From: Tretioscincus oriximinensis
Lineage: Eukaryota > Chordata > Lepidosauria > Squamata > Gymnophthalmidae
Direction: 5' to 3'
NCBI GenBank assembly: GCA_022410635.1
Contig: JAJVDF010000191.1
Span: 1,529,226-1,593,225 of the forward strand
DNA length: 64,000 nucleotides
Positions 13,601 through 41,901 of this stretch are shown piece after piece. The notes under the pieces are model-generated. The model was not told the DNA's origin, searched no databases, and saw only the letters and a list, made by a program, of their open reading frames with translations. The number at the start of each line of letters is the position of its first letter. The stretch's first letter is position 1. The position numbers and the translations under genes are program-made.

Positions 13601-16600
13601 ACTGCTCACCAGCTGGCTACTCGAGGCCCCATTGGCTGGCTCCTCCAGCCACGCCCCCTCCCAAACAGGGAACCAGGAAGCCACGCCCCAGCCCAGGCCT
13701 GCTCTTCCCCCCTCCCTCTGGGATATCTGCTAAGTTTATAAAAGAAATATGAACCTTAAAATGGAGGACGCCACAACGTCAACAGAAGAACATAGCCTGG
13801 GTGGCTTTTTTAACAGTTTTTTGTGGCGTCTTTAGATTTTTGGCTATATGTTCGCCATATCCCAGTAGCAGGTCTCCAGAGATATCCTCTCTCTTAGTAT
13901 CAAGAACGTTAGAAATGTTCCACTGGACCAGGCCAATGGCCTGTTCCCTCAGTGGCTTATTAGCTGTACAGGGAGAAAGACAGAGGGCCTGTCCCCACTG
14001 AGCCCTGTACAGGGCTCTATCTCGGAATAGGAGCCTGCCATAGCCCACGCTGGCATGTGGATGGTCAAGCTCTGTCCCAAGATAGACCCCATAATAAGGC
14101 TCCGTGGGGACAGGGCCAGAATATCTTTAAATGCTAATTGCAGGGAGTTGGAAGCAGGTTAAGATTTTGCTTCCTTCTAGAGAGAAATAGTCGTACATCA
14201 GTTAAGAGCCCTGGTGTTTCAGCAATACTGAGTTCGAAGCTCTGTGTCAGCGTGGAGGGGGATGCACGCCCTCTATTGGCCTTAGCTACAGCCAACTCAG
14301 CTGTTCAAAAGCAATTATTTGTAATTAGATAAATGAATAGCACCATCATGTGATGGGGAAGATAGAATGTACCTATCTTTGGTGTAGTGGTTGAATGTTG
14401 GACTTGTACCTGGTAGTCTCCCGGTTTGGTTCACCATTCCTCCACGAAAATCAGCTGGGTGACCATGGGCCAGTGACAGTTCTTTGAACTCTCTCAGCCC
14501 CACCTACTCCACAGGGTGTCTGTTGTGGAGAAAGCAACAAAAGCTATGTGCGCCGCCCTGTGGTTGGCCACCCTCAGACCTTCAGGTATAGGGCGGGATA
14601 CAAGTACAAATAAATAATAATAAACCTTCAGGGGAAAAATAGGTTTCCCTTTGGGTGAGAAAAGCCAGGTATAAAAATCCATTCTTCTTCCCCTTCCTCC
14701 TCTTCCTGTTCTCTTTCTCCTTCCCCTTCTTCTCCTCCTCCTAAAGTATGTGCTCAAACCTGCATTCACATTTGGTAATAGAGTGTATGTGTGATAGGAA
14801 GCTGGACTAGATAGACTGTGTGTTGATCCAATAGAGATGTTTCTATGTTCTTATACAAAAGTTCATGGGGGACAGCTGTATCAATGTCTTCTGAAATTAA
14901 TACCACTTTCAGGTTCTAGAAGCAGGAGACAGTTTTTCCTTTCTTCTACTTGGGAAGAACTGGTGGCTCACTGTGTAAAATGGATGTTCAACTAAATGAG
15001 CTGTGACCTGATCCACTAGGGTTTTTCTTAAGAATATATATTCTTATGTTCTTATCTTCTTCTGTTTGTGGTCTCCTGACTTCATCTAGTCAGATCCATA
15101 ACCCATTTAGTCAAATAGTCTGTTCTTAAAATGACCAGCCAGCTGCACAAGTAAGATCTTAGAAGAAAATACTTGTCTTCAGGCAATTTCTTCCTCTTCT
15201 TCTTCTTTGTAGAGAACAGGATTTACCTTCTTCTGCTTGAGACGGCCCAGCTGTCTTTGAATATCTGAAGGGCTTTTCACAGAGCAGAGAGATCAGCATT
15301 GTTCTCACTGGCACATGGAAGGAGTAGAAACAATGGGATGAAACTGCAAGGAAGAAGATATAGATTAGATATCAGAAGATAACTTCCTGACAGTCAGGGT
15401 GATCAACCAGAGGAACAGGTCGCCACAGGGGCTGGTGTGTTCTCTGCTGGAAGTCTTCAAACAGAGGCTGAGCAGCCACCTGTATGGGATGGTTTAATGA
15501 ATCTTTAATGAGTAGGGGGTTGGACCCAATGGCCCCGGAGGTCATTTCCAATTCTGTGATTCTACAATTATGTGATTCTATGGTTCAATAACTCAGTGGG
15601 CCACTGTGTGGGACAGAATGCTGGACAAGATGGGCTCTGGTCCAACTCAGCAGACGTTTTCCTATGTTCTTATGTATTTTTAATCCAGCTTCAATCCTGA
15701 ATAACTGGGCTAAACCCTGAAACAGCTTTAGTTCAGTTATTTGGGAATGAAGATGTCGGAATAGCAGTGAGGCCCTGTCCCCACTAAGCCTTCTTCTGGG
15801 TTATATGTCGGTACAGAGCTTGGTCATCCACATGCCAGTGTAGGCTGTGGCAGGCCCCATTCGGGGCCTGCCATAGCCTACACTAGCATGTAGATGGCAC
15901 ATTCCTATTCTGAGATGTAGCCTAGAAGAAGGCTCATGGGGACAGGGTATAAGCACTTTAAAAAGAGAGAGTGAGGAAGCCCCCCAGTCGCCTATTCTGA
16001 GATGGGATCTGTTTTATTTCAGTCCACGTTGCTAAGTGACAGAAAACAAAGCCAGGCCTTCCACCTATAGGTTCTGACCTATTTTGGACTCCTTTTGGAA
16101 GAATTCTTTCAATGAAGAGTTCCTCGTGGCTGGCAATGTGGCCCACTCCTCTTTCTGATCCATGCCCTTCTGTATTCTTTCACAGATTGCTGCGAGAACA
16201 GTGGATTAGAGCTAAATACGAAAGGAAAGAATTCATTTATATTGAGAAGCAAGAGCCGTACTCTGCAGGTAACGGGGGTGGATGGTGGATGGGAGGGTTC
16301 TGGTGCTGTAGTCTGTAAACATTTGAATCGCTTCCTCCTGTGTTCAGAACTGATTCTAATGGGACAGGATGGTTCCTCCTTCTGAATGGGTTGTGGTCAA
16401 ATTCTGAGCTCATTGTCTCTCCCATTTCCTCTTCCTTTTTATTTACATGCAAAAGTTGGTGGGCAGTTTCTGTGGCCCTCCAACAAGGGGGGCGTCCACA
16501 CGACTGTTTCCTAGGCGTAATATTCCACCATCTTCTCTCTTCAGCCATAAGTGTTAATGGAGGCTTTGCTAGCCTTGGTCATATATCCACAAGAGAGCTG

Positions 16601-22600: not shown

Positions 22601-25600
22601 TTAATTCCCATAAGCCTCAGCATTTTAAAAAAGTTTCAGTGCTACTTCTGATACGCTTGTCTTGCTTTCCAATTTTGTAATCTGGTAACCCAACTCCCCA
22701 CATGTCCACATCCTTCAGCTGCAGTAGGTGATGGGACCACTATGGCTGCAGCCACACAGGGCGTGATGACTCTGTTTCAGGTGTTAACAAAGATTTTGCA
22801 ATGCACCTGGAAAAAAGGTCCTTTGACCCAGAATATTCTTTAGCCATGCCTGCATCTGGGGAGGTGAGAAGTCTTCTTGTGTGTCCAAATCCTAAACGGG
22901 ATTACCAGAATTCCTTGAGATAACATCAGCCCAGCACAATGCAGAATCGCTGGCTGAGCATGCTCTGTATTTACTTCCTGGTTAGTAATCTTGTCGGTTC
23001 CACACAGATTTAAAGATACAGCGTGATTTTAAAATACTCTTTTAACTTTTATATTTAAAATCTTTCAAAGTTTTAACATTTTTCTTCCATATAGAATTTG
23101 TAAGAAGTGCCTTTCTGATGATATGGTCATACGACTAATCATAAATAAACTAAACTAAATTAAAGATACAGCATTATGCTTACATTCCGCAGTTGTTTCT
23201 CTCATTACAAATTTTAAGACGTCCTGTCTCTGCAGTCAAAGAGGCCTTGATTGGAAGATCTTGGGCTGCAAGCAGTTCTAGGTGAAAGGAAACATTAATT
23301 TAGATTTTTGAGTCTTAACTGCATAGGTCCTTAAATATTAATACTGATTTATACTGGGCTAAAACATTGTCGTTGACCCAAGGTTACCAAGGATAAGAGA
23401 ACCCTAAACTCTACCTTGATGCCCTAGGCACTATGCCACATTGTTTTTAAGCCCATGCTAACCCATATGGAAGAAGGGGAATTAATATTTACTTTGCTGA
23501 AATCAACCAACAATATCTGAAATCTTTCCTTGCGGTGGCAGAGTTTGTACAGCTCTGTGTATTTTGCACCCAGAACTTGGTTTCAAGAAGAAGTCCAAAT
23601 GTCCTTGGAAACTTGGCTGGTAATTAATAGAACTGTCTGGTTCTGCAGGCTTCCTTATATCCTCCACCCTCATCTTTTGGAGGCTAATTGGCTCGGTCTG
23701 AATCAATCACTTCCTGCTTGAGTGGGTTAATTGGGTGCTGCAGAAGTGATCCGTTTAATCTGAAAATTTCGTCTCCGTGTTACATTCGGCTCCTGTCTTG
23801 ATTGGGCTGCGCAAGGAGTCTTCTGAAAACAAAGTAGAGCAAATGTACAGCAACAGTAACTCCATCTCGATGACAAGTCCGCCTGCTTTTGGTGGCTTCT
23901 GCCTGGAGATCGACATTTTGGGACATTTTGGCATGTGGGTAGCCAAGCTCTGTCCCAAAACGTTACCCAGAAGTTATTAATTAGTTCCTTATTTCTTTGT
24001 AACCTGGGCAGTCAAGAAGAAAGTGTGTAGTATTTTCTATCGCCTGTTCTTTCCCGATACAGATCCTTTCCTTAAGTGGAATATTTGCAAATCTGCCCAG
24101 GTTATGAATAATATGCAGTTGGTCGAATCTGTTTTTTGTAAGAACTTGTCTTATCTAAATAGCCTTCCATTTTTACACTTAGTTTATATGAAGGCAGATA
24201 TGCATTGGCTATGTTCAAGTCCTCCTGTGCGGCTATGTCTAGCGCTCTTTGCTTGGGAAGTGAAGGAGCTTTTCTTCCAAGGTTGCACAAAGTTATTAAA
24301 GATGTGGGAGATGAGCAGATCCAACTTGGCTGATCATGCTAACTTGCGCTTTAATAGTTGATTTCAGAGAAATAGCTGTGTTAGTCTTAGTGGAAAGCCC
24401 AGCAAGGGAGCTTGTATTATCTGGAGACTCACAGAAGAAAGGTCAGTGGCATGAGGTTTCATAGACGTCTTCAGATGCCAGGGGACCTAGTCCATCCCCA
24501 TATCACATTTACATGACTTTTGTCACCTCCTACACAGTTTCCTATACATGTTCCTGACCTCGGTCCCCTGGCACCTGAAGAAGTAGACGGGCCTATGAAA
24601 GGTCTTGATGCCTACTTTTCGCCTGTTTCTCTCCAAGTGCTACAAGGCACCATATGCTGGACTTGCTGCTCTTTAATAGATTTTGTTCATCTAGAAGTAG
24701 ATGCGGAAGTCTGTTATTGGACATTTGGGTCACTTTGTGCCAGCAATTGAACTATCTAGAAATCACCTGGCAGTTAATTGGAGGTTCCCAAGTATGTTCA
24801 TAAATGTCTCGCTTAAATTACTCAAACTTTTGCAGACTAGCTGAGCCCCAGATTTCTGTATAAAAATATTGGAAAACATATAAGATAAAAATAAAAATAT
24901 ATTGAAAATATAATCCCTCCCTCCCCCACACCCAACCATTCAAAGAAACTACATAAGAACATAAGAAGAACCATACTGGATTAGGCCACATCCCATCAAG
25001 TCCAGCCTTCTGTCTCACACAGAGGCCCGCCAGATGCACCTGGGCAGCCTGAACAGAGAAAAGCAAAATATGCTCCTGTTCGTGACTCCCTGCAAATAGT
25101 ATTTCAGGAGTCCTGCCTGTTGCTCCATCCCGGAGGCAACATCTAGACATCCATCCTAGTATTCTTTTTACACCCTTGGTGTCCATAAACCTGTCTAGTC
25201 CTGTCTTGAAACTATCCAAGCTGTTAGCTACCACTACCTCTTCAGGACGTAAATTCCACAGGCCGATGACCCTCTGGGTGAAAAAATACTTCCCTTTTTC
25301 TGTTCTCACTTTTCTACCCAACAGTTTTAAGGAGTGCCCTCTGGTTCTTGTGTTGTGTGAGAGAGAAAACATTTTTCCTCTATTCACCCTGTCTATCCCA
25401 TGCATGATTTTGTACATTTCAATCAGATCCCTTCTCAAACGTCGCCTTTCAAGGCTGAAGAGGCCCAGACGTTGCAGCCTGACTTCGTAAGGGAGGTGCT
25501 CCAGACCCTTGATCATTTTTGTTGCCCTTTTCTGCACCTTCTCTAGCTCCACAATATCTCTCTTGAGATATGGTGACCGGAATTGAACACAGTATTCCAA

Positions 25601-28600
25601 ATGTGGACCCACCACAAATTTATAAAGAGGCAAAACAACATTTGCTAACTTGTTTTTGATTCCTTTCCTAATTATCCCCAATATGGAATTTGCCTTTTTT
25701 GCTGCTGCTGCTGCTAGGAAATCAAAGATCCAAGAGCCATCATCTGTTGCCATCTGGTTAAGCTATGACCTGTCTTTCAACTTTCTTGACTTTTGAGTAG
25801 CCATATCACAGCTGCTGGCATGTTCCTTTTCATATACAAATGCTTCCAGGCATCCCTACAAAACGCAACATTCATTCCATTTTGCAATATACATGGTAGA
25901 TCACGAGACAGATACTAAACATCTCCTTTGAGGAAGCTGGCAGAAGGCAGACAGGTACACTGGCAATTGCTAGCAGATATGGATGATTAAAATGTCAGAT
26001 GGGCTCATGAGCAGACAGTCATGCTTCTGGATCTTGACGGCTCTTTTTTGAATAACAAAATGTGGTGCAATCTTGAGTCTGGAAGAATTACGAGACTTGA
26101 CCCACATGTAGCCAGACAACTGTTGGCAATGTAAGGAAGTTCTTGTTATCTGATGTTGGTGAGAGATAATCTAGATCAGGGTGATGAAAGTATGAATGTT
26201 CACATCTTAGTAACTGAAACAACAACAATAAAATATAAACACTGGGTTGTTCCACTTCTCACGTCATTCCACTCAGGGTACTGTACTTTCTGTCTGTTAG
26301 CCAGTTTTCAACCGAGGACTCTGGTCTCTGGAGGCTGCCAAAGTTCCAAGCCCTGTCATTGGTCTCTGGAGTCTGCCAAAGTTCCAAGCCCTGTCATTGG
26401 TCATTATACTTCAGAATGTTGAACTGTCCCACATGCCTTTTGTTATATGGACAGATATGCATTATTTATTTATTTCTGAATCATTTTACAAATATTAATC
26501 CCCAAACCACTCTCTGGACAAACCAAGCGTAATACTAGGCTCACAGTACAGGCACGGATAGGTCAGTTGCTTAGGAATTCGTCTCTCGCCTGGGAGATGG
26601 GGTTTCGAAGCCCTGTGTTGGAAGTGGGGAGGGCTNAGCNCCTTCCACTAGCCTGTAGCNCTAGCNAACCCAGCTANTCGAAAGCANGAACTGCAAGAAA
26701 TTGCAACTGACTGCAAGTAGATACATGGGNACCACCANAGCCTGGTGGGGAAGATAGAATGTCAGCCTTCGGGCAAAATATATCCTTGTAAGCCGCTCTG
26801 AGTCCCTTTGAAAGGTGAGAAAAGCGGGGTATAAAAACCAAGTTCTTCTTCTTCTTCTTAATCTGAAGCCAATACTATTACTCTGAAGTACTGTTAATTT
26901 GCTTCTACTCATCAACTAACATTAAATATAATCACAATAACGTTTATTTATAATGCCCCTTTCACCAAATGCTGGCCCACTTAACTTCTATTGCTTTCTC
27001 CAGAACAGACCCTCTGTGAAGTAGGTTTGACTGTGACTGACCCAAGGTCACCCAGCAGGCTTCAAATTGGGAGACTACCGAAGAAGACTCTGACCATTCT
27101 ACCAAACTGGCTTCCCTAGATAGTCAAAAGTATTGTTCTTATAGACAGGTTTATGGACACCAAGGGTATAAATGGATACTAGGATGGATGTCTGGATGTT
27201 GCCTCCGGGATGGAGCAACAGGCAGGACTCCTGAGATACCATTTGCGGGGAGTCATGAACAGGTGCATATTTTGCTTTCCTCTGTTCGGACTGCCCAGGT
27301 GCATCTGTGTGAGACAGAAGGCTGGACTGCCAAGTGCCTCACTGGCTACGAATGTCTTGGTACTGCCTCTGGGAACCTTGAACAGGTAAAGGTTTTGTCT
27401 TCTTCTGCTAGAGATACCAAAGTGGGCCACAAGTTGGGACAGGAGGCTGGACTAGATGGGCCAAGACCCCTTTTAGTAGGGCTCCCCTTAAGCTCTTTTT
27501 TTTTAGAAAATGTATTTATTATTATTTTTTCCAACAAAACACATTAAATACACATTGTTAGATACTGCTCAAAACAATTAAGGGAACCCTTTGACATAAC
27601 AGTATATATTAAAGTGTTCCCCTAATTGTTTTAAGCAATATACATACATCATTATCAACTTAGCTATATCTTTTTACTTTTTACAGTTCACTTCCTTATA
27701 ACATTATCACTCATTAAGGAACAATCCTGAGATATTCATCCTATTTACCCACTCCCACCTTCCCTCGCTCCCCGCCCACCCCGTCACCCCCGGGCCCCAT
27801 ACAGACAGTCCTTGTTTTGTTCAATTTTCATTAACAATGATCTTATCTTTCTGGACAATTCTTCTTTTCCTTCGATATCTCTATCCTTGGCTAGTAGCTT
27901 ACCCCATGCACATCTCAGCGAATTTCTNGTATTTACCCCCAGCATCGTTTTCCATTTTTCATTCACCAGGCCGAACTCTGTTTGATCTACAATGTAATCA
28001 TGCCAACCTGTTATACCCTACTGAGTGTGATCTTTCCATTTGGATACAATATGTGATAAGGCTGCTGAGAGCAACAATAATCTTCCTCCGGAACGTTATT
28101 GCTAAATATCTGAAATAAACATTCAGCATTTGCCTCTTAGGTTCTTGTATTGTGTTGTTATGAAGAGGCCTAAGGAGATGCGAAGCTGTTTAGCATGAAA
28201 GGCTTTGATCTTGACCAGGCCCCCAAATTTCGACCCCAAACATGAATATTGGAATTATTTTGCCCTTGAAGACTTCCAGGGCAGGTCTAACTGTACCTGG
28301 ATATTAGACTGACCAGATTATTTGAAGCCCAAACTACGATAACTAATATACATGCTAATTTGCATATTCATGAATATTCAAATTACCCATTAACAAAATC
28401 CCCGTCCGAAGTACCCAAGAATCTTTTAAAGTGCATGAGAATTTTTGATATGTGCAAGAAATCTCCATTTTTTTTATTTTTTTTACTGAAGGTAGGGTAC
28501 CTTCAGAAGCTGGCCCCAGTTGCTAGAGCCCCCTAGTGGTAGTGCAGTGATTTTTAAAAAATCAATAAAAAAAAAATTAAGTGCATGAGAATTTTTTGAA

Positions 28601-31600: not shown

Positions 31601-34600
31601 GAACCCCCATGGCTTGCAAATCACATACTTGAAGGACAACAGCACACGGAACATCTTTGTTTACCATGAAGATGGCAAGGTGGGAGCTCCAAAGTAAGAA
31701 AGAAGGCTGTTCTCCAAAGCCATTGGAGTAGACACCTGAGCATAGTATCTAGACAGGTCCCCCATCCACCTTCCTGTAAAGCAGGAAACATGTTTCTGTG
31801 GGTGGGACTGGGTGTTGATTGGCTAAAGTGGCTTCCTTCCTCCCAGGGCTAGTATTGGTGCAGGCTGGGAGCTGTAGTGTGCAGGGCATGGCCCTGCGCA
31901 GGCTTGGCAGAAGGGGCTACCTGCTGCTTGAACCACTTCCCTGTGGGACCTGCCATGAGCACAACAGCTCTGTTTCATTTTTTCTTTTACATTTGTGTTG
32001 CTGCTGCTGATACTGCCAGCTTGGTGAAGCTCCTGGGTATCCAAGCTGTTATAATAAGCACTTATCGTTGTGAAAAAACTATGTAGAAAAGCAGGCAGAA
32101 ATACAACTAAGAGCTTTAAGACAGGAAACAGAAATTCTGTCAGGAAGTAGAGAAACAGGAAGCTGGCAGTTAAGGAAGCCTGGAACCCCTTCTGGTAGGG
32201 ATTGCTCATTCTTTCTTCTTCTGTCTCATCCCTATTTCAAGGTTGTGGAGGGCAAAGGAGCTTTGTACTACCTTTTTTACATACACAGTGGACTATCTCA
32301 AGCATTCTCAATGCTACTCAAATAGTGAAATGCAGCAATACAATATGGACATTTGCCTCTATGTGATGCATTCTGGGGCAGTTTATAAAGGGCCGAGATA
32401 CAAATTACAGGACCTTGGAGAGCTCCCCAGCAGGAGAGTTGTTGCTCTGAGAAGCTCCTATCTGTTCATATAATAAAAGATGGGTGGAGAGTTCAACATT
32501 CCAAAGTAAAATGACCAATACTTTGGCAGGCTCCAGAGACCAATGACAGGGATCGGAATTTTGGCAGCCTCCATAGACCAATGACAGGGCTCGGAATTTT
32601 GGCAGCCTCCATAGACCAACGATAGGGCTCGGAACTTTGGCAGCCTCCATAGACCAATGACAGGGCTCGGAATTTTGGCAGCCTCCATAGACCAATGACA
32701 GGGCTCGGAACTTTGGCAGCCACCAGAGACCAGAATCCTGGGTTGGAAACTAGCTAGAAGACAGAAAATAGAAGGAAGAAATAAATGAACAGTTCTTTGG
32801 GTGGAAAGATGTGAGAAGTAGAATATCCCATGGGAAGGAAGGACGAAAAGGAAGAAACAGCTTCCCTAACAGCTTTTGTTTTCTTTCTCAATGCAGGAAA
32901 TGGTGGACTGGTTCAATGCCATTCGGGCCGCCCGCTTCCATTACTTAAAAGTGGCATTTCCTGGAGCAAGCGATACTGATGTAAGTGTCGAGGGCCAGAA
33001 CCCTCTATAAATCCTTCCCTTAGCTCAAAAACAGGAAATGCAAAGGCTGCATTCTAGCATTTGGGGGTTCCATCTGCTTTGAACAGTGANGCCTAACCTT
33101 TTGAGCTCAGCCCCACCTACTTGACAAGGTGTCTGTTGTGAAAAGAGAAGAACAGAAAGTTCTGGAAGCCTCTTTGATTTCCTTCCAGGTTGAGGAAAGT
33201 GAGAAATAAAAACCAACTTCTTCTCCTCCTCCTCTTTCCTTTGCAGTTTCATCCCATCATCTTTTAGTCTTTCCTTGTGCAAGTGAAAATAGGACTGATC
33301 CCTGCAAAGTATAAGTCAGGGCTAACGTTCCTTCTTTTTTGTTTTCTATTCCCACAACTCCAGTTGGTTCCAAAGCTGACTCGGAACTACCTTAAGGAAG
33401 GTTACATGGAAAAAACTGGGCCTAAGGTGGGATTCGCTGCTGTTTTCTGTTTATACCAAAAGCAAGTATATTTTGTTTCTGTGCTTTTTAGAAACACCAG
33501 CAGATACATTTTTTTAAAAAGTGCTTATAAATATTGCAACCTGATGTCACGGTCTTCACCTGAATGGTAATTTATATTGCTGGGTTTCCCATGTGTTCTG
33601 TTACCTGCTGCCCATAGATGTGGCCAACTGAAAATGGCTCAAGAATTTGGGCCTGGATAACTCTGCATTACGTCTTGGAATCATTCTGGAGCTTTTTAAC
33701 TTTGTGAAAGTGTGAATTCTGGATTGAGCCCACTAATATATGGGAATTTTAAGCTTATATATATAATGTATCAATAGGCCACTGAAGAAGACCATTCGGT
33801 CGAAACGCGTCTGGCCTCCAGCTTATGAAGACAGAAAGATCTATACTCCATCAATATCTACACTTGCATTATTTGAGGACTTCAGCGTTATTATACTTCA
33901 CCCTTTTGGACTTTTACTCCATTTCTTTGGACTGAAGCAATATATTGGGCTGCTCCACTTTATATTTTGGAAATTGTGGGTTATTGAATATTGTTTTAAA
34001 TACATTTATATTATTTTACTATTTGTATAATTTTTGTTTTGTGTTTGCACGTGGGTTGGACACCCGAGGGTTTTTGCTCCATTTCGTTTGGTGAATCTGC
34101 TCCCTTGTGGTTTTAGGGATTGTTTGGTTTCATGTTTAACTCTGGATACCACCAGATCACTAAATAGGGAAGCAGGAAAGGAGTATGAAAAAGTANGACA
34201 AAAGCAAGATTTAAAGAGGCTGAGGCTAATGGGAGCTGTGGTCCCCCTCAAAGAAGTCTCCCAAAGAACGTTCTGTTTCTTGAAAANGATGGTCAAGGGT
34301 ATCAAAATATGGACACGTCCTGCTAAATAATAGTTGTAACTCCAGGCTTGGAAAATACCCATCTTAGGGTAGGTCTGAAAAAAGGGGATATTACAGCCAA
34401 AGACAAGATTGTCCAGTCCAAGCCTTTCTGTACTGTCATCATTGTAGTCCACAGAAATAATTTGAACCACCTTTAAATAGAACCTCTGCACATCCCCTCT
34501 CTAAAGTGGGAGTTGCAGATTATAACTTCAAAATGGCTGCTCTATTTTTATACTGGCTAGACAGCTGGAATCCTGTAATAGCTGGCCAAAGCCCCGGCTG

Positions 34601-35729
34601 TTCAGAACTGACTTTCCAGCAACTCCAGACAGAAAGGAGTCATGAAAACCATCTTCTTAAATTGGTTGGGACTAGGTTAATGGGCTGGTCAGGCCCAGCT
34701 GCAAACTATTAGGCTAAGCGCCCTGGTAGAATTGGCCTGTGCTGGTTCTAAAGATTACAATGTCTCCATATTGCTGGGTTTCCCATGTGTATTGTTATCT
34801 GCTGCCCATAGGTGTGGTCGCTTGATGTTTCTAGTACTGGGTCCCTCTGGAGATGCATTTTGTCTAAATATGGCTGTCTGTTAGACCAGACCCATTCCTC
34901 CCACATGCCTCTATCACTTGAAATGCTAGTAGAGCTGAAAATACAAGTCCACAGGGACTTGGGCCACCTAGATTAAGATACTGTACAAACCATCCCATGT
35001 AATGCAGACACAGGGAGAGTATAGGATCTCTCTGTTTTGGCCTAACATGTGGAAGGGGAGGGTCTAAAAAGGAGTAGGCTTCACACTGATAAGTTCTGCA
35101 GGTAAATTAAAAGAGTTAAGAGCGTAGATGTTAAGAGTCAGTCTTTCACGCGAGAGGTCCGTTTTCGAAGCCGTGTGTCAGCTGTGGAGAGGGGTTAGCC
35201 CCCTCTACTGGCCTCAGCTCCAGCCAACTCAGATTTGCGATCCACATTTCAAGTAGATTCATGGGTAGCACCACTGGTGAGGAAGACAAAACACATGTAA
35301 GCCTTTGGGTGAAAAATGAACTTTGTAAGCTGCTCTGGACACCTAGAGTGGGGTATAGATGCCACGCTTCTTGGTTAAGGATTTCTGTAGGTTCAGACCC
35401 ACCAAAGGAACCCTCTGAATCAGGAATTTGACAAAAGAACACCTGGATACTGCACCCTGCATACCAAAGGGAATTTGAACCTGGGGAGAGCAGCACAAAC
35501 ACTGGAGGTTTGCAGACCAGCAACTAGTTTACTAGTTGATACACAGCTTAAAATAGAGAAGACATCCCTTGATCTGCCAAGGATCCACAGATGTGCAGCA
35601 CCAGACACCAGGGACAGCAGCAGTCACTGTCCATTTCTCGTGCTACGGCCCTCTCATGTGGCCAGCAAAGCAACATGTAATCCATTTAGAAGAAGAAGAG
35701 GAAGAAGAGGAAGAAGAGGAACAGGAAGA

Positions 35730-36347: not shown

Positions 36348-39300
36348 CAGCATGAATGATGTAATTAGCAATGAGTCTGGGAAAGTAGAACTGTACTTAT
36401 TACGCCTGTGGGAAATATAGTCAGATGATCCCTTGTGGAGCAATCCGCATACATCTGGGTGCACCCTAGTTGTCTGAGTTTGAATGCCAAAAATGAACAA
36501 AAGTTGCAAACTTATGAAATACTTTACAGCCTTTGACCCCCTTCTTAACCATAGGGTAGTTCTGTCCTTTTTTGCATCCTTCAAAACTGATATGACTGTC
36601 CTAATTAAAACATACACAGAGTTTAATTATTTTCTTACTGCCTTGGGATTTGTAGTTTTTAATCAAGCTGTCTTCTACCGTAGCTGTCTTGTGAGTGGCA
36701 AATTAAACAAGTCTGAAATGTTGATGGAAATTTTAGTTCAAACTGTTCCCTGGAAGCAAAACAGCGAGAAAGTATTCCACCAATTTTTTATAGACCTTGT
36801 GGTATGATAGCTCTCAAATCGAGGTTTCTCAGTTTAGAAGAAATTTGACTNTGTTGCCCACCCCTAACTTCACAATGGGACAAACCAAATTGTCAATTGG
36901 TCCTTTGATTCCACCCCCCCCCCCCCTATAAAGACCTACACTTAAATCTTCTATAGGCGGAACCATGTTTACATGTGCCCATTAGAGACATGTGAAACTG
37001 ATTTATATTTAAAATGGTTTGAACCGAACAGGGGTGTTCAAGATATTCCACTTCGACCAAACACCGGAACTTTGAAAAGAGTTTCAGTTTGAATGAACAA
37101 AGTTGTTCCAACAAACCTCAAGCAGATGTTATCTAAGAAAGTAGACGTATCTATGGAAGCTGGTGTTACCTACCATTTTCTTTCAGGAGAAAGATAGGCA
37201 GCATGAGCTTTCGTAGACACTTCTTCAGATGCTTTTGTAGACACTTCTTCAGATGCTTGCAAACACTCTTCTTCAGATGCTTTGGTAGACACTTNTTCAG
37301 ATGCTTTCGTAGACTCTTCTTCAGATGCTTTCGTAGACTCTTCTTCAGATGCTTTCGTAGACTCTTCTTCAGATGCTTTCGTAGACTCTTCTTCAGATGC
37401 TTTGGTAGACACTTCTGTGGCGACCCCTACCTGAGGGCCCTACTATTCGATGACTCTCACAGTCAGGGGTGCCACAATATCCACCCTGTTGCCCAAGCCA
37501 GCACCCACGACTGCTTGGAGCAACAGTACTATCCTCCGGCCTACACAAGGCCTCAGTGTTTACCTCAGGATGAGGGCTTTATTCACAGCCCCCACCAGTA
37601 GCGTGCTTAATTTTGTGGTTACAGAAGTAAAGAAAGAGAGAGATGTTTGAACTGCAACAAATAACAAGTTTATTATTTACAAACAAGGAATAGAAGAAAG
37701 ATTAGAATAATAAAGCTTNGGCTTTTATCAAGTAAGCCTGACTCAAGCACACACACACCAAGCAAGTGCNACATTAGTTTCCCAGATCCTTCAAGAGACA
37801 GGCCCTGTGTCACTTTATTTGTTCCAGCCCCAAGTCAAGCCTCAGCTTTGACTCCTTCAGGCCACCATACACTTCCACCCCCTCCCTCTGAGGCAGATCA
37901 GAAGCGGACCCCTCTGTCCACTTGCTACACAAGTCTCCCTGACAGAAAGGCCTCTAGCCCTGGTCAGCTTCCCTTTTAACCGCTCACCAGCTGGCTACTC
38001 GAGGCCCCATTGGCTGGCTCCACCAGCCACGCCCCCTCCCAAACAGGGAACCAGGAAGCCACACCCCTGCCCAGGCCTGCTCTTCCCCCTCCCTCTGGGA
38101 TATCTGCTAAGTTTATAAAAGAAACACAAACCTCAAAATGGAGGACGCCACAACTTCTTCAGATACTTTCGTAGACTCTTCTTCAGATGCTTTCGTAGAC
38201 TCTTCTTCAGATGCTTTGGTAGACACTTCTTCAGATGCTTTCAGCAGCATCTGAAGAAGTAGGCGTGTCTATGAAAGGTCATGCCGCGTACCTTTCTCCT
38301 TTTAGTCTCCAAGTGCTACGTGCCCCCTTGCTGAACTTTCTAACTAGGACTGACATGGCTATTTCTCTGAAATCAACTACCTTACTCTTGTTAGGCCCTC
38401 TCCACATGAGGTGTTATAAAGTGCAATGGTGTTAAAATCTGGAATAGCTCAATTGCAGGTCCACACATACGTACCCACATGTTTCATGACAACACCCTTA
38501 GTTTAGTTGAGACAAGTGTTATTCCCGTTCCATTGATCCATCAGGTCTCCTGCTCTTCTTGTGATTGGCTTATTTTCCCTCCTATCTTACATCTCCTCAT
38601 GATATCCTACCTTCTCCCCTACCAAGTGGTATATGGATGTTTAGGAATAGGAATATAGGGAGTTTCGCAAGAGTTTCGTATTGATGTGTGAAAGAATCAA
38701 TTGTCAGGATAATCCGGGACCATGGACATTTTTCCTGAATGGATTACTGAAATGCTGTTAGCACGCGGGGCAGTGGTATCATGTTGTTACTATCACCGTA
38801 GTAGGAAAACCTCGTGTTCCTGCAGTCTTAGAATCTAAGACCCTAGGAGACCCCCTAGCTAGGTTTCCTGGACCCAGACTATTTCTCTGAAATCTGAACA
38901 GTTAATGTACATCTCAAGTGCTCCGTCACGCTTGCTGTCATTCATTTAGTTCAGGTATCCAAGCCACCCATATCAAATCCCACGGCTGAGTATCTAAAGT
39001 AGACAGCAGCAAATTCCAGGCGCATGAAACAGGAGATGATAACTTTTCGATAGAAGTCATTTTTATTTGGCCATGTGGGAACTTAGCAACAGAGCTTCTT
39101 AAAATGATTTTTTTNNAAAAAATGCATTTTTCAAATCACCAGGTAACGTGCGTTTTGAGCTGGCACCTAAGACCATTGGGAAATTTAACTGCAGTTACAA
39201 AATGGTGGTGCCACCACCAAGAAGACCTTTTTTCAGAACCAAATGTCTTACTCCTTGTGATGGTGAAAAGAAGAGAAAGCAAGAAAAATCTCTCTGACTC

Positions 39301-41901
39301 AATAATAATTATGCCTTAGAAAAACTGTCGTGTCAGTTGTCCCAACACTTGGTGTTTCTTTCGTTCTCTAGCAGACCGAAGGGTTCAAGAAACGCTGGTT
39401 TACCATGGATGACCGAAGGTTAATGTACTTCAAAGATCCTCTGGTGAGATGTTTATTTCTACGTATGATCTTAGATCAGTGCAGAGGCAGGAAGAGCTGG
39501 ATGCGAAGATAATGCCGTTTAGTAACTGAATTTGCGGGTTGCGTCCTACGTACTGATACTTCTCTAATAAGAGCTGAAGTTTTGTGAGAAAATATGACAG
39601 AAAATATGAGCAATCTGATATAACAGGAAGCACAGAAGCGTGTTTCGTGTCCTTCCCATATAGCAAATGTTCAGTGAATTATCCTGGGAATATGCTGAGA
39701 TTACCATGGGTATGTATGGNAGTCCCAAAAACCAGTTCCAGGAAAACTAGAGGCACCTTCCTTGTTTCAGGAATGAGGGGGGTGGAGGGTAGGAACAGGA
39801 GTAGCCCATGGAGTTTACATGGTCGTGACTTGAGACAAATTGCCCGACTTTTTTTTTTCTATGCTGAAAAAAAAAATCATTTTGATTTTCAACTAGCAGA
39901 ATTAGCCGGTTGCGTTACGGTATTGCAACAGTCCCTAGCCCCTTCACCCTCCTTGCTCCAGTCCATACCTCCAACCCCTCCCTCCCTTTTCCCCTCCACT
40001 CCCTCTTTCACTTGCCCCTTCTTTCTTTCTCCCTTCTATCTTTCCTTTTTCCTCCACCCTCCTTTTCTTCCTTTCCACTCTGGAGGCTACCAAAGTTCCG
40101 AGCCCTGTCATTGGTCTCTTGGGCACTGTCAAAGTTCCGAGCCCTGTCATTGGCCTCTGGAGGCTGCCAAAGTTCCGAGCCATGTGGTTGGCCTCTCGAG
40201 GCTGCCAAATTTCCGAGCCCTGTTATCGGCCTCTGGGGCACTGTCAAAGTTCCGAGCCCTGTCATTGACCTCTGGGCCACTGTCAAAGTTCAGAGCCCTG
40301 TCATTGGCCTCTGGAGGCTGCCAAAGTTACGATCCGTGTGGTTGGCCTCGAGGCTGCCAAAGTTCCGAGCCCTGTCATTGGNCTCTGGGGCACTGTCAAA
40401 GTTCCGAGCCCTGTCATTGGCCTCTGGGGCACTGTCAAAGTTCCGAGCCCTGTCATTGGCATCTGGAGGCTGCCAAAGTTACGAGCCCTGTTGTTGGGCT
40501 CTGGAGGCTGCCAAAGTTCTGAGCCCTGTTGTTGGCTACTATACCTCAGAATGTTGGATCCTTTTTTTATATGTACAGATTGAAAAGATTCTTAAGAGAA
40601 AATAAAGGAGGAGGCAATTGTTGATCTGTTTTGCGATGTCTTTTTTCTGTCCTGTCTCCAGGATGCCTTTGCCAGGGGAGAAGTTTTCATCGGAAGCAAG
40701 GAGCACAACTACCGAGTCTTAGAAGGGCTTCCACCGTCCACCCAGGGAAACCACTGGCAGCACGGGATCACCATCGTGACGCCCGACAGAAAATTCCTCT
40801 TTGCCTGCGAAACGGAAAGTGACCAGAGGGAATGGATTTCCACTTTCCAGAAAGTGATAACTAGGCCCATGTTGCCCCAGGAGTATGCAGGTAAGGGGCA
40901 GCCCTAGGTGTGCAGGTTGTTGTCTTGTGTGATTCAGGGGAAATTCAAGAGCCAGTTTAATGTAATGGTTAAAAGAGTTTAAATAAATATTTATGTTACT
41001 CTTTATTAAAACCCCATCAACCAAATAAAATAGAAACTATAAATAGGAAGGAAGAAAATAAATGAGGAGGGGGGGAAGGGATAAATGAACAAATGAATGA
41101 GTTTTTTTAAGAGGAAGTGTTTTTTTTACATATACGGCTCAAAACAATGAAGGGAACACTTCAACATAACAGTGTATTAATTGTTTTGAGCAGTATATTT
41201 TGGTCCCATTCAGTTCAAAATTACTTAAACATAAAATCTGTTTATGCCAAGCATTAAACAGAAGGAATTTCTTTATATTTACAAGTTTTAACAGAATCAG
41301 AAAGTAAAATTCTAGAACGCAATTCTGCAAGGGGATGTTGGACATCAGGATTTTTCGGATGTTGGGAAATGTACAAGTAATGGAAGAATTTGAATTCTGT
41401 TGTTGGTCTCACGCTTTCGTATTGGTTAAGTTTCCATTTATAAAAACTACTGTATGGTTTTCCAGGATGTCGACTGTCGTTTATAAAGATCTAAATGTTA
41501 ACTAAGAAAGAAGAAGATAATGGATGTTGTTTAAGTACTAATATTTGAATTTTTTTTCTTTTCTCCTTTCCTTCCTTTTTTGTTCTCTTTTACTCTCCCT
41601 GCCCTCCATCCTCTCTCCCTTCCCCCCTCTCAATTCTCTTCCTTCTCATCCCCCTTTTTTTCTTTGCTTATTTCTCATCATCATCTCCCTCTCCCTCTCC
41701 TTCTCCTTCTTCTTCCTTTTGCTTCCTTCCTGTCTTTCCTTCCGTCCTTCTTTTTCTTCCTTTCTTCCTCTACCTTTCTTCCTTTTCTTCATTCTTCCTT
41801 TAATTATCCTTCTTTTCTTCCCTCCTTCTCTTTCTTTTTTCCTTCCTTCCTTCTTTCCTTCCTACCCGCAAGTGGAAGCTCATTTCAAACACAAACCATA
41901 A
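7527..41901 (+). CDS. ADAP1: ADAP1, coding exons 2-11 (spliced; exon 1 outside window)
   Basis: ADAP1 (centaurin-alpha-1) stimulates GTP hydrolysis on ARF6 and is recruited to the plasma membrane by PIP3 through its PH domains; it is enriched in neurons. Ten exons join in one frame with GT donors and AG acceptors: 7527-7657, 12717-12808, 16186-16268, 29150-29262, 31533-31679, 32897-32980, 33364-33426, 39372-39443, 40662-40890, 41873-41901. They give residues 28-374 if exon 1 supplies 27 residues plus one base, matching the 374-residue human length. Order: second half of the ArfGAP zinc finger (28 to about 125), PH1 (about 130-230), PH2 (about 250-360), tail ending VEAHFKHKP. The zinc-finger Cys41, Cys44 and arginine finger Arg49 are present. 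The exact VEAHFKHKP ending and PH2 sequence favour ADAP1 over ADAP2. No frameshift or premature stop is seen. The promoter and start codon are not in the window. Confidence 0.97.
7827..8025 (+). mobile_element. Sauria-type SINE, 5'-damaged
   Basis: tRNA-like start ggttagagtgtttgtactctggttcaa leads into the conserved middle (cacctacttcataaggtgtctg) and the tail (gagtccccttgggttaagaaaag), followed by a CT-rich tract. Confidence 0.7.
8030..8372. repeat. Pyrimidine-rich low-complexity tract
   Basis: About 340 bases of CTT/CTC/TATTAC mixtures following the SINE tail at 7827-8025; probably an expanded SINE tail. The frames in it are not genes. Confidence 0.8.
9136..9305 (-). mobile_element. CR1 LINE tail
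   Basis: Antisense CR1 3' end (cataagaacctaagaag ... ggcccaccaggtacacctgg ... ggagtcctgcc). Confidence 0.75.
9412..9494. repeat. (CAA)n/(TTG)n inverted microsatellite and (ATT)n
   Basis: Ten ACA-type units, the spacer ttatga, then seven TGT-type units and an ATT run. The two halves are reverse complements, giving a hairpin with a stem of at least 21 bp. Confidence 0.85.
10383..10800 (+). repeat. Dispersed repeat family B, copy 1
   Basis: About 415 bases with landmarks acttcctgtaagcag, tttcctgtgggtgggact, gctgctactgctac, catccaagcttttataataag, caggcggaaatacaac, aaacaggaagtgg. The same order recurs at 31750, 43364 and 44628. No open frame, no tRNA head and no obvious inverted ends. Family not recognised. 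Confidence 0.65.
10891..11290 (-). mobile_element. CR1 LINE, ORF2 C-terminus and 3' end
   Basis: Starts at the CR1-type 3' end (atcatagagttggaaggg). The - strand frame 11256-10966 reads [18 protein letters not shown], then [12 protein letters not shown], the conserved C-terminal end of CR1 ORF2. 5'-truncated; not functional. Confidence 0.85.
11480..11665 (-). mobile_element. CR1 LINE fragment
   Basis: Antisense piece of the CR1 ORF2 end (ctggtcctagtgttgtgtg, cccatgcatgattttata, ggctgaagaggcccagacg), matching part of 25300-25500. Confidence 0.75.
12209..12590. mobile_element. Foldback MITE (CTGACCAGAT family), decayed long form
   Basis: Left end gactgaccatatgacccc; interior cactgcaccaccactaggg (a single unit, against three at 6341); right arm attaattaccccagtttggg. 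The terminal repeat at the right is mutated (aatccggtgccc). Confidence 0.65.
12717..12808 (+). CDS. ADAP1: ADAP1 exon 3
   Basis: Encodes residues 72-101 and two bases of codon 102, beginning [10 protein letters not shown] and ending PTFSDC. It forms the middle of the ArfGAP fold. Acceptor ctgcag after a good pyrimidine tract; donor gtaagt. Phase 0 in, phase 2 out. Confidence 0.97.
13039..13775. mobile_element. Solo LTR-like element, copy 1 (737 bp, 5-bp TSD)
   Basis: Begins TGTGGCG and ends CGCCACA, flanked by the exact 5-bp duplication ACGTC (13034-13038 and 13776-13780). TG...CA ends, this duplication size and AATAAA-type signals inside fit a solo long terminal repeat. There is no internal gene. 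A copy of identical length is at 37416-38152. Superfamily (Gypsy or endogenous retrovirus) cannot be decided. Confidence 0.8.
13985..14122. repeat. Foldback MITE family C, internally deleted
   Basis: Inverted ends ggcctgtccccactgagcc and ggctccgtggggacagggcc around 138 bases. Longer relatives at 15770 and 49632. Confidence 0.6.
14190..14735 (+). mobile_element. tRNA-derived SINE interrupted by a Sauria-type SINE
   Basis: The outer SINE (14190-14372 and about 14628-14735) shows gttcgaagctctgtgtca, cagccaactcagctgtt, gaagatagaatg, and then its tail gagaaaagccaggtataaaaa. The inner one (about 14376-14628) has ggtgtagtggttgaatgttgg, the conserved cccacctactccacagggtg and tail gggcgggatacaagtac. 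The inner element therefore landed in the outer. Confidence 0.7.
14760..15062 (+). mobile_element. Two CR1-like LINE tails
   Basis: Short diverged 3' ends in series, each with 'ggctggactagatagactg'-type text and ending ttctatgttcttat (14860) or ttcttatgttcttat (about 15055). Confidence 0.6.
15230..15675 (+). mobile_element. CR1 LINE 3' part plus a second tail
   Basis: Sense copy of the region seen antisense at 10891-11290 (gaaggagtagaaacaatggg, gtgatcaaccagaggaac, gggttggacccaatgg). A tail of a different CR1 subfamily then ends at about 15675 with ctatgttcttatg. Frame destroyed. Confidence 0.75.
15770..15950. repeat. Foldback MITE family C
   Basis: About 180 bases that fold almost completely on themselves. 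The ends are ggccctgtccccac and gtggggacaggg-like; the centre is a perfect palindrome ggcaggcccc-attc-ggggcctgcc. Nearly identical to 49632-49812. Confidence 0.75.
16186..16268 (+). CDS. ADAP1: ADAP1 exon 4
   Basis: Completes Pro102 and encodes residues 103-129 plus one base of Gly130: [16 protein letters not shown] then [19 protein letters not shown] is the conserved end of the ArfGAP domain. Acceptor ttcacag, donor gtaacg. The next intron is 12.9 kb. Confidence 0.97.
16953..17251 (-). mobile_element. tRNA-Lys-like SINE (type 2)
   Basis: On the - strand it starts gcacggatagctcagtcgc (resembling the tRNA-Lys 5' half with box A), then gggtttgaagccc-like box B, the unique body (actgcaagtagatacatgg in other copies), and ends gtataagaacccagttc with a TTC tail. 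The 75 bases beyond the tail match those at 59252-59326. Confidence 0.8.
18203..18512 (+). mobile_element. tRNA-Lys-like SINE (type 2)
   Basis: Full-length copy: gcactgatagctcagtcgc head, box B near ggggttttgaagccc, body ctgcaagtagatacatgg, tail gagaaaagcggggtataag and (TTC)n. Confidence 0.82.
18713..19030. repeat. Purine-rich GA/GAAA tract
   Basis: About 315 bases of GAGA, GAAA and GGAA mixtures with few pyrimidines. Long frames on both strands here are low-complexity artefacts. Confidence 0.8.
20370..20785 (+). mobile_element. Sauria-type SINE carrying a hAT insertion
   Basis: The head ccaatatggtgtagtggttagag is cut at 20395 by the transposon at 20396-20581 and resumes ggttagagtgtcagactc, then cacctacttcacagggtg and tail. 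Removing the insertion and one duplication restores a normal SINE. Confidence 0.85.
20396..20581. mobile_element. Short hAT-type element, 186 bp, exact 8-bp TSD
   Basis: Ends CAGACCTGGGCAA and TTGCCCACCCCTG are inverted. Flanks carry the identical GGTTAGAG (20388-20395, 20582-20589). The interior has ggccacatgcggccctcc. Non-coding MITE. Confidence 0.9.
21749..22255 (+). mobile_element. Minisatellite-bearing element, 1 internal unit
   Basis: 5' end attagcctg, then the hairpin TTGCATTAC/GGTAATGCAA (21758-21776); CT-rich middle (21810-22110); one copy of the 38-bp unit (tctggaggctaccaatatt ... aagccctg); 3' end gaatgttggactctgtggc. Relatives at 26280, 32455, 39899 and 63330. Confidence 0.65.
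22256..24359. other. Intron 4 stretch, mostly unannotated
   Basis: Apart from the exon-like piece at 22781-22863, I see no gene. The part around 23990-24150 (gggcagtcaagaagaaagtg) looks like old LINE sequence. Confidence 0.4.
22781..22863 (+). other. Exon-like open stretch inside ADAP1 intron 4
   Basis: 83 bases preceded by ctgtttcag and followed by gtgaga, open in one frame for 27 codons ([20 protein letters not shown] and more). It matches no ADAP1 exon I know, and its phases do not fit between exons 4 and 5 without a frameshift. Probably chance or a decayed exon. Confidence 0.2.
24360..24700. repeat. Two hammerhead-motif repeat copies, head to head
   Basis: The - strand copy has its motif at 24450-24479 (GGCAT, CTGAAGA, GAA, ACCT, C, ATGCC). 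The + strand copy is at 24570-24612 (CTGAAGA, A, GTAG/CTAT hairpin, GAA, AGGT, C). Both continue into the shared tail (ctccaagtgctacaaggc on +; gctgtgttagtc on -). Confidence 0.6.
24818..25753 (-). pseudogene. CR1 LINE ORF2 C-terminal fragment with 3' tail
   Basis: A - strand frame of 311 residues: the first about 195 residues ([68 protein letters not shown]) are the conserved region C-terminal to the CR1 reverse transcriptase. The rest is a read-through of the 3' UTR. The polymerase and endonuclease are absent, so it is a dead 5'-truncated copy. The tail at 24955-24975 is the CATAAGAACATAAGAAG repeat. Confidence 0.9.
26280..26450 (+). mobile_element. Minisatellite-bearing element, 2 internal units
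   Basis: 5' part ctgttagccagttttcaacc; about two copies of ctggaggctgccaaagttcc-type units; 3' end tcagaatgttgaactg and atatggacagat. The 5' end is of the same subtype as the copy at 32455-32790. Confidence 0.65.
26552..26859 (+). mobile_element. tRNA-Lys-like SINE (type 2)
   Basis: Full-length copy: head gcacggataggtcagttgc, box B ggggtttcgaagccc, body ctgcaagtagatacatgg, tail gtataaaaaccaagttc and TTC repeats. Several N bases inside. Confidence 0.82.
27000..27118 (-). mobile_element. Sauria-type SINE fragment
   Basis: Antisense: ctctgtgaagtaggtttgac, cccaaggtcacccagcagg, attctaccaaactggcttcc (the reverse of the tRNA-like head). Confidence 0.65.
27144..27500 (+). mobile_element. CR1 LINE 3' end plus a second CR1-like tail
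   Basis: The first part (27144-27330) is the common CR1 3' UTR with a short deletion. The second (27330-27500) is another subfamily (ccacaagttgggacagg ... ggctggactagatggg). Confidence 0.7.
27563..27640. mobile_element. Palindromic mariner-like MITE (78 bp)
   Basis: TACTGCTCAAAACAATTA pairs with taattgttttaagcaata at the other end. The whole element folds into one hairpin flanked by TA. Same family at 41133-41195 and 58954-59031. Confidence 0.8.
28305..28753. mobile_element. Foldback MITE (CTGACCAGAT family) with 8-bp TSD
   Basis: TAGACTGACCAGAT ... ATCTGGTCAACCTA, flanked by identical CTGGATAT at 28297-28304 and 28754-28761. This fixes the true ends as TAG...CTA with 8-bp duplications, as in hAT elements. 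Interior as in the copy at 6341 but inverted. Confidence 0.8.
29150..29262 (+). CDS. ADAP1: ADAP1 exon 5 (start of PH1)
   Basis: Completes Gly130 and encodes residues 131-167: [16 protein letters not shown], then [16 protein letters not shown]. The basic residues around KRGRD and SRKF lie in the first beta strands of PH1, the usual phosphoinositide-binding surface. Acceptor ccttag, donor gtaaga. Confidence 0.97.
29745..29840 (-). mobile_element. Sauria-type SINE fragment
   Basis: Antisense head and body: cacccaactggcttcatgg, caacactctactacaccaaactgg. Confidence 0.65.
29940..30430 (+). mobile_element. L1-type LINE fragment (ORF2 C-terminal region)
   Basis: Broken frames on + read pieces such as [12 protein letters not shown], the Cys/His-containing end typical of L1 ORF2, followed by A-rich text. 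No intact frame. Confidence 0.5.
30518..30563. repeat. Perfect 18-bp inverted repeat
   Basis: TACTGTATTGTGTTAGCA, a 10-base spacer, then its exact reverse complement. Probably a tiny foldback DNA element of the mariner type. Confidence 0.85.
30597..30790 (+). mobile_element. CR1-like LINE tail
   Basis: Landmarks tgcttgacatgcccagg, gcctggactagacggactg, gcccagttctgcagggc; a subfamily different from the TTCTTATG one. Confidence 0.6.
31128..31440. repeat. CTAT/CTCT/CCTCTAT microsatellite
   Basis: About 310 bases of tetranucleotide-like pyrimidine-biased repeats within 100 bases upstream of ADAP1 exon 6. Confidence 0.85.
31533..31679 (+). CDS. ADAP1: ADAP1 exon 6 (PH1)
   Basis: Encodes residues 168-216 (49 codons, phase 0 both ends), starting [18 protein letters not shown] and ending FVYHEDGK, the middle of PH1. 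Acceptor caccag, donor gtggga. A pyrimidine-rich tetranucleotide array fills about 31128-31440, ending roughly 90 bases upstream. Confidence 0.97.
31750..32200 (+). repeat. Dispersed repeat family B, copy 2
   Basis: Longest copy: ccaccttcctgtaaagcag, gtgggtgggactgggtg, tgctgctgctgatactgcc, tatccaagctgttataataag, caggcagaaatacaac, aaacaggaagctggc. Confidence 0.65.
32455..32790 (-). mobile_element. Minisatellite-bearing element, about 6 internal units
   Basis: Antisense copy. Six 38-bp units (gcctccatagaccaatgac ... ggctcggaattttgg) at 32520-32735, very similar to each other. The 3' end is at about 32455 (catataataaaagatggg). Confidence 0.75.
32897..32980 (+). CDS. ADAP1: ADAP1 exon 7 (end of PH1)
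   Basis: Encodes residues 217-244 (28 codons): [18 protein letters not shown] and AFPGASDTD. The Trp in [10 protein letters not shown] is the invariant Trp of the C-terminal PH helix. Acceptor atgcag, donor gtaagt. Confidence 0.97.
33090..33240 (+). mobile_element. Sauria-type SINE, 3' half
   Basis: ccccacctacttgacaagg, gaaaagagaagaacag, tail aggaaagtgagaaataaaa plus CTC repeats. The 5' head is missing. Confidence 0.65.
33364..33426 (+). CDS. ADAP1: ADAP1 exon 8 (linker, start of PH2)
   Basis: Encodes residues 245-265 (21 codons), [17 protein letters not shown] then TGPK. It links PH1 to the first strand of PH2 (EGYMEK). Acceptor ctccag, donor gtggga. Intron 7 before it is short (383 bases). 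Confidence 0.97.
33574..34822 (+). mobile_element. Candidate Penelope-like element region with direct repeats
   Basis: About 50 bases (atattgctgggtttcccatg ... tgctgcccata) occur at 33574-33626 and again at 34768-34822 in the same orientation. Between them lies the hammerhead-like sequence 33776-33817 and text of unknown origin. No reverse transcriptase frame is visible, so the assignment rests on the ribozyme motif only. Confidence 0.35.
33776..33817 (+). ncRNA. Hammerhead-ribozyme-like motif, minimal type I layout
   Basis: Stem I AGGCCA (33776-33781) pairs with TGGCCT (33812-33817). The conserved core CTGAAGA is at 33782-33788. One extra A (33789) precedes stem II GACC/GGTC closed by ATTC. 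GAA follows at 33802-33804, then ACGCGT (33805-33810), a self-complementary stem III, and C33811 at the cleavage position. Short palindromic stem III is known from hammerheads that act as dimers, including those of Penelope-like retroelements. The extra A is a departure from the consensus, so activity is uncertain. Confidence 0.65.
35110..35372 (+). mobile_element. tRNA-derived SINE (type 2), degenerate
   Basis: gttttcgaagccgtgtgtc (box B), cagccaactcagatttgc, agtagattcatgggtagc, gtaagctgctctggac; no TTC tail. Confidence 0.65.
35688..35926. repeat. Pure purine (GAA/GAG) array, 239 bp
   Basis: Almost uninterrupted GAAGAAGAG repeats with one C (35722). It is followed by gactgagctatccgtgc, the reversed head of the type 2 SINE, suggesting an expanded SINE tail whose body was lost. 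Frames of poly-Glu or Arg/Gly here are artefacts. Confidence 0.9.
36110..36350. repeat. CR1-like piece and (ATT)n(AGT)n(ATTT)n microsatellites
   Basis: 36110-36200 resembles the CR1 segment before its tail (taaaacaggattagacaagc), also seen at 9325-9400. Then ATT repeats (36207-36264), AGT repeats (to 36297) and ATTT repeats (to 36348). Confidence 0.8.
37196..38285 (-). repeat. 24-bp minisatellite built from a hammerhead-like motif, split by an LTR
   Basis: About 12 units. On the - strand each reads CTGAAGAAGAGTCTAC then GAAAGCAT. The array runs 37201-37415 and resumes 38153-38242, the gap being the LTR at 37416-38152. A complete motif caps each side: - strand 37201-37232 (GCAT, CTGAAGA, GAA, AGCT, C, ATGC) and + strand 38247-38284 (GCAT, CTGAAGA, GTAG/CTAT, GAA, AGGT, C, ATGC). 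Because 24 is divisible by 3, a false protein repeat STKASEEE appears. Confidence 0.85.
37416..38152. mobile_element. Solo LTR-like element, copy 2 (737 bp, 5-bp TSD)
   Basis: TGTGGCG ... CGCCACA, flanked by exact ACTTC (37411-37415, 38153-38157). By eye nearly identical to 13039-13775 and the same length, with different target duplications. So both are independent insertions. Confidence 0.85.
38250..38375 (+). repeat. Hammerhead-motif repeat, 3' tail
   Basis: After the motif the copy continues ctccttttagtctccaagtgctac, then gactgacatggctatttctc, the tail also recognisable at 1740-1825, 24360-24400 and 24640-24660. Confidence 0.6.
39372..39443 (+). CDS. ADAP1: ADAP1 exon 9 (PH2)
   Basis: Encodes residues 266-289 (24 codons): [16 protein letters not shown] and MYFKDPL. 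FKKRWF is the PH strand-2 basic motif. The acceptor is a tandem tagcag, so use of the second AG would drop Gln266 without changing frame. The form including Gln matches human ADAP1. Donor gtgaga. Confidence 0.97.
39899..40580 (+). mobile_element. Minisatellite-bearing element, 12 internal units
   Basis: 5' hairpin gttgcgttacggtattgcaac; CT-rich part 39940-40078; then 12 units of 38-39 bp (40080-40540) in two subtypes, ctggaggctgccaaagttcc and ctggggcactgtcaaagttcc, each ending gagccctgtcattgg; 3' end tcagaatgttggatcc and atatgtacagat. Lies 80 bases before ADAP1 exon 10. Confidence 0.8.
40662..40890 (+). CDS. ADAP1: ADAP1 exon 10 (PH2)
   Basis: The largest coding exon: residues 290-365 plus one base of codon 366. 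It starts [17 protein letters not shown], contains [17 protein letters not shown] and [10 protein letters not shown] (PH C-terminal helix Trp), and ends RPMLPQEYA. Acceptor ctccag, donor gtaagg. If intron 10 were retained, the frame would stop after five extra codons. Confidence 0.97.
41133..41195. mobile_element. Palindromic mariner-like MITE, shortened
   Basis: tacggctcaaaacaatgaag ... taattgttttgagcagta, 63 bases; the centre is partly lost compared with 58954-59031. Confidence 0.75.
41530..41868. repeat. Pyrimidine tract upstream of ADAP1 exon 11
   Basis: About 340 bases of TTCC/TCTC mixtures ending five bases before the last-exon acceptor. Confidence 0.85.
41873..41901 (+). CDS. ADAP1: ADAP1 exon 11, final codons and stop
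   Basis: Completes Val366 and encodes EAHFKHKP followed by TAA at 41899-41901. This 9-residue ending is identical to human ADAP1. The acceptor is cgcaag, directly after about 330 bases of almost pure pyrimidine. The 3' UTR follows; its end is not certain. Confidence 0.95.

Follow-up and report, generated by a model that had tools for sequence, protein, structure and literature searches.

Minimal type I hammerhead ribozymes of Penelope-like retroelements were reportedly described by Cervera & de la Pena in 2014 and by Lunse, Weinberg & Breaker in 2017. According to the excerpted text of one published account, minimal type I hammerheads are mostly dispersed in non-coding DNA, with some residing in Penelope-like pseudo-LTRs; they may self-cleave as dimers, and in the Penelope-like ones the non-conserved helix III bases are usually missing (PMC7761336). 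In the axolotl, one base pair and a palindromic tetraloop as its cap make up helix III, and the ribozyme is described as weak in its monomeric form and much better as a dimer (PMC7229834, excerpt). Eukaryotic double hammerheads need a tandem arrangement as well as a palindrome within loop III, as stated in an excerpt of PMC6466107. A Penelope-like element of Anolis carries a hammerhead annotated with stems I and II, which did not cleave without the protein of the element, and ribozyme-dead mutants left in vitro insertion unchanged; a methods passage of the same paper mentions that its authors had earlier seen a Penelope-like hammerhead cleave itself at 3-25 mM Mg (PMC11167929, excerpts).

The window analysed here (the whole stretch of DNA, 64 kb in length) contains a 42-nt hammerhead layout on its + strand at 33776-33817, with the full block order legible directly in the sequence. 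Stem I is composed of AGGCCA (33776-33781) and, read directly, UGGCCU (33812-33817), forming six uninterrupted pairs with pairing probabilities of 0.72-1.0. Its 5' strand is followed by the core segment CUGAAGA (C3-A9, 33782-33788), which was read and aligned to the core of the Rfam family RF00163, and by an extra A at 33789, which separates A9 from stem II and counts as an insertion against RF00163. Stem II is a 4-bp hairpin, GACC-AUUC-GGUC (33790-33801; GACC at 33790-33793, ATTC at 33794-33797, GGTC at 33798-33801), with a pairing probability of 0.99, and leads into the second core segment GAA (G12-A14, 33802-33804), likewise read and aligned to RF00163. The palindrome ACGCGU (33805-33810) requires a second molecule or copy as partner to complete stem III. 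It is succeeded by C17 (33811), where the hammerhead consensus and the RF00163 alignment place the predicted cleavage site (33811/33812). The original prediction of a complete type I hammerhead layout at this position agrees with the sequence in its blocks, their order and their coordinates.

The motif is located in ADAP1, which runs along the + strand. Using the human ADAP1 protein as tblastn probe, we obtained ten pieces covering human residues 28-374, the last of them weak (E 0.60). Two exons of the window, one ending at 33426 and the other at 40662-40889, match solved ADAP1/centaurin-alpha-1 chains. The motif is positioned between the exon ending at 33426 (human residues 244-265), about 350 nt upstream, and the exon starting at 39372 (residues 266-289), 5.6 kb downstream; by the human exon count, this intron is ADAP1 intron 8. 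Both the tblastn pieces and the exon matches to solved chains support the earlier assignment to this intron in sense orientation. Four CpG dinucleotides occur within the 42 nt, in a window with a CpG observed/expected ratio of 0.312, and at least four CpG are present in 738 of the 63959 42-mers of the window. Elsewhere in ADAP1, minisatellite units of 38-39 bp, similar to one another by eye, occur in both orientations at 26322-26402, 32522-32732 and 40078-40536. A 314-codon open frame at 24821-25762 (-) resembles, by eye, the terminal part of a reverse transcriptase from a CR1-type LINE.

Within a single molecule, the best fold reaches -13.8 kcal/mol and includes two extra pairs inside the core, while the hammerhead-compatible form, limited to stems I and II, lies at -13.5 kcal/mol and makes up 14% of the ensemble. 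Stem III of one molecule can contain no more than a single A-U pair closing a CGCG loop, at a cost of 6.3 kcal/mol. Two molecules reach their minimum energy, -33.9 kcal/mol, in the complete double hammerhead, versus -27.6 kcal/mol for two separate molecules. This gain of approximately -6.3 kcal/mol corresponds, by our arithmetic, to a dissociation constant of the order of 10^-5 M, a value that presumably exceeds pre-mRNA concentrations by far, and tandem copies would therefore be needed. In these predicted folds, the motif shows the minimal dimer-type arrangement, with no working monomer stem III and a palindrome that permits a double hammerhead. The suggestion that the self-complementary stem III indicates a dimer is thereby supported by the two-molecule fold as well as by published accounts. 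No second copy with the ACGCGT palindrome plus GAA was found in the 64-kb window; ACGCGT occurs at one other place, 45261, without GAA before it. Since the dimer mechanism needs two copies and the window has one, cleavage or processing of ADAP1 pre-mRNA by the motif is unlikely. As one molecule has stems I and II and no usable stem III, the lone intronic copy would most likely be silent.

RF00163 (Hammerhead_1) aligns to the motif end to end, over model positions 1-45, with 16.3 bits against a gathering cut-off of 34. The alignment surfaced only in a 55-nt search with laxer filters, at E 0.068; recast to one family and the whole window, this value becomes roughly 0.02 (0.068/4227 x 64000/55). 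The sequence contains the RF00163 core CUGANGA ... GAAA ... UH with an open stem I, one A being inserted before stem II. At the gathering cut-off, RF00163 gave no match in the whole 64-kb window, and an Rfam search of 401 nt around the motif at E<=10 gave no hammerhead. The original prediction had named the lack of a covariance-model match above threshold as one half of what would count against it, and such a match is indeed absent. An intramolecular stem III as in RF00163 was likewise not found, the single A-U pair giving -7.2 kcal/mol versus -13.5 kcal/mol without the pair. As neither the cut-off nor the intramolecular stem III was reached, we do not file the motif under RF00163. On its sequence, it has the layout of a minimal type I hammerhead of the dimer-forming class, with a known working principle and putative activity. 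A complete minimal hammerhead layout can be recognized in raw sequence despite sub-cut-off Rfam scores, and hammerhead counts based on Rfam cut-offs may therefore be too low for the minimal class.

Three hammerhead-like relatives accompany the motif in the window. The second copy, found at 37200-37233 on the - strand by a looser descriptor, consists of stem I AGCAT/ATGCT, CTGAAGA, an extra A, a weak stem II of 2 bp, GAA, the palindrome AGCT, and C. The other two were located on the + strand by a core-word search using CTGANGAAG with at most one mismatch, a word that favours the extra A. One of them (38247-38284) reads GCAT, CTGAAGA, extra A, a 5-bp stem II including G-U pairs, GAA, the non-palindromic AGGT, C, and ATGC. 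The other, decayed one (24570-24612) reads GGCAC, CTGAAGA, extra A, a hairpin, GAA, AGGTC, and ATGCC, the strands of its stem I being shifted so that 1 bp stays in register. Six rows were returned by this search, three of which were kept as hammerhead-like (24575, 33782 and 38251); the rows at 6436 (+), 30619 (+) and 30696 (-) were dropped as being of low complexity or without the core-plus-stem plan, the one at 30619 having a stem I of 4 bp and lacking the extra A. Rfam at E<=10 gave no hammerhead match in either 37200-37233 or 38247-38284, and the pattern of the AGCT-type relative had no matches in viral contigs. Stem I letters differ among the copies (AGGCCA/TGGCCT, AGCAT/ATGCT, GCAT/ATGC), both sides changing while the core is constant. 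With the stem sequences differing, it is the layout and the core that support a common origin of the relatives.

The extra A had been described as the one deviation of the motif. It is indeed inserted relative to RF00163, but it is not unique, as it recurs in the 37200-37233 copy, where the descriptor allowed 0 or 1 extra base, and in the + strand relatives at 24575 and 38251, which were found with a word that itself includes that A. Given its recurrence in the 37200-37233 copy, we reject a private mutation, and from these sequences we read the extra A as a trait probably shared by the copies. Among the published core variants are insertions near C3, after A6 and within the GAAA stretch, and an insertion after A9 is not mentioned among the core variants in the excerpted text of PMC3088659. 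The recurring extra A before stem II represents a concrete core variant. The pattern CTGANGA...GAAA matches 24 times in the window versus 7.56 expected, and 10 of the 24 matches begin with CTGAAGAAG.

Several repeats surround the second copy. A 24-bp tandem array extends over 37207-37416 and 38154-38242; its minus-strand unit, ATCTGAAGAAGAGTCTACGAAAGC, contains hammerhead core words and no proper stem II. The array, at the edge of which the 37200-37233 copy is situated, resembles a small satellite grown from a hammerhead motif. It is split by one of two 737-bp LTR-like stretches (37416-38152 and 13039-13775), which begin with TGTGGCGACC and end with GACGCCACA. The former is bordered on both sides by ACTTC (by eye) and the latter by ACGTC; the pair has the look of solo LTRs from a single family.

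We postulate that the motif was once the hammerhead of a retroelement, either Penelope-like or closely related and non-autonomous, that inserted in ADAP1 intron 8, and that it is near-inactive as a lone copy; we regard this reading as quite probable. An element would have inserted into this intron, leaving a single, stranded hammerhead copy behind. In the parent element, arranged as head-to-tail copies, two hammerheads would pair via the palindromic ACGCGU and cut after C17, thereby trimming the multimeric element RNA. The lone copy would be near-inactive in the pre-mRNA, with no demonstrable role for ADAP1. The element origin, the activity in dimeric form and the silence of the monomer are inferred. 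A Pfam search at E<=1 of 8 of the 42 listed nearby open frames gave no matches, and hence no Penelope-like protein in those frames. When the flanks (33300-34800) were compared with the window, only a 50-bp direct repeat inside the flanking region itself and one 84-nt stretch were obtained, the latter matching 22606-22686 at 71% identity and not including the motif. The direct repeat (33574-33623 and 34768-34817) is 92% identical, with its copies 1194 bp apart and enclosing 1144 bp with the hammerhead, and is possibly a long target-site duplication. A literature search combining Penelope, hammerhead and squamate returned no match, and the listed matches for the literal string gaaacgcgt have unrelated titles.

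Chance assembly of hammerhead-like words, to which we give next to no credence, would be in keeping with the shortness of the motif, with its sub-cut-off Rfam score and with a single-strand fold whose energy is not clearly better than that of shuffles (a z of -1.22 over 56 nt and of 0.15 over 116 nt). The centroid of the longer, 116-nt fold, whose energy is no better than that of shuffles, adds an outer 6-pair extension. Folding energy, not being clearly stronger than in shuffles, was dropped as evidence for the motif. Searches for the layout itself weigh against chance. The pattern CTGANGA-N{4,20}-GAAACGCGT matched once in the window and never in 100 shuffles. A structural descriptor requiring an exact core with no more than 1 extra base, a stem II of at least 3 pairs, GAA, a palindrome or hairpin as stem III, H, and a stem I of at least 4 pairs returned the motif as its sole match in the window and none in 150 shuffles. 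Relaxing stem II to at least 2 pairs, with palindromes only, added the 37200-37233 (-) copy, with 0 matches in 600 shuffles. As an outside control, CTGANGAAG-N{4,26}-CGAAACGCGT was searched in public contigs, 11 viral and at least 118 prokaryote stretches; a stem I of at least 4 pairs together with a stem II of at least 4 pairs was seen in 0 of the 129 outside core-word matches, among the matches listed. The second copy moreover shares the extra A. With 0 matches in 600 shuffles and no two-stem match among those listed outside, we reject chance; such an origin of the 42-nt layout is unlikely.

A different source, a non-autonomous retrozyme (a short hammerhead repeat spreading via circular RNA) in place of a Penelope-like piece, appears improbable to us. 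The one-pair stem III with a palindromic tetraloop is shared with the amphibian retrozymes and is, going by the excerpted descriptions, closer to the form seen here than the Penelope-like one. Retrozyme units, however, are tandem and some 150-400 nt long, and the window holds no tandem second copy of the motif; axolotl retrozymes also have loop 1-loop 2 contacts in the excerpted account, whereas stem I here is uninterrupted. Tandem units each with a hammerhead, the hallmark of non-LTR retrozymes, were thus not found, the window having a single copy with the ACGCGT stem III. Less probable still is an intronic ribozyme domesticated to cut ADAP1 pre-mRNA, with an effect on its splicing or level, like the conserved hammerheads in introns of RECK and C10orf118. 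The sense strand, the intronic position, the intact core blocks and the four CpG retained in a CpG-poor window would all fit such a role; hammerheads are retained in vertebrate introns elsewhere (PMC3088659, excerpt), and the earlier self-cleavage mentioned in PMC11167929 was that of a Penelope-like hammerhead. Set against this are the want of a usable stem III in one molecule, the single GAA-plus-palindrome copy in the window and, in the excerpt of PMC11167929, the Anolis hammerhead that stayed uncleaved without protein. A variant of this scenario, in which the intact, CpG-retaining hammerhead would cut ADAP1 pre-mRNA as trans pairs or aided by a protein, as a retained gene-control device tolerating the extra A, strikes us as a shade less plausible again. 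If any such intronic copy were active, this would bear on the origin of vertebrate intronic ribozymes from retroelements.

Taking up the favoured origin from a Penelope-like or related element, the locus can be placed among the described systems. Published descriptions support the resemblance to the hammerheads of newt satellite RNA and Penelope-like elements that the original prediction put forward (PMC7229834, PMC7761336; excerpts). Compared with RF00163, the core blocks are shared over aligned positions 1-45, the extra A forming the insertion. Axolotl and newt retrozyme or satellite hammerheads resemble the motif in their one-pair stem III with a palindromic tetraloop, to which A-CGCG-U fits closely, and apparently differ by loop 1-loop 2 contacts and tandem repeats of 330-350 bp, neither of which is seen at the ADAP1 motif (PMC7229834, excerpt). 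PAc of Anolis carolinensis, likened here by its description, shares stems I and II and the vertebrate retroelement type; its hammerhead, in contrast, extends across the position where the open reading frame of the element begins, and cleaved only with the element protein (PMC11167929, excerpt). Autonomous Penelope-like elements code for a reverse transcriptase and a GIY-YIG endonuclease and carry pseudo-LTRs; beside the motif, no element coding sequence was seen in the 8 of 42 frames scanned. Unlike the usual Penelope-like form, as described in part, the motif keeps four non-conserved helix III bases. As a whole, the ADAP1 motif is like the Penelope-like minimal hammerheads of the excerpted descriptions in having stems I and II, no working monomer stem III, a palindrome suited to dimers and a single, non-coding occurrence.
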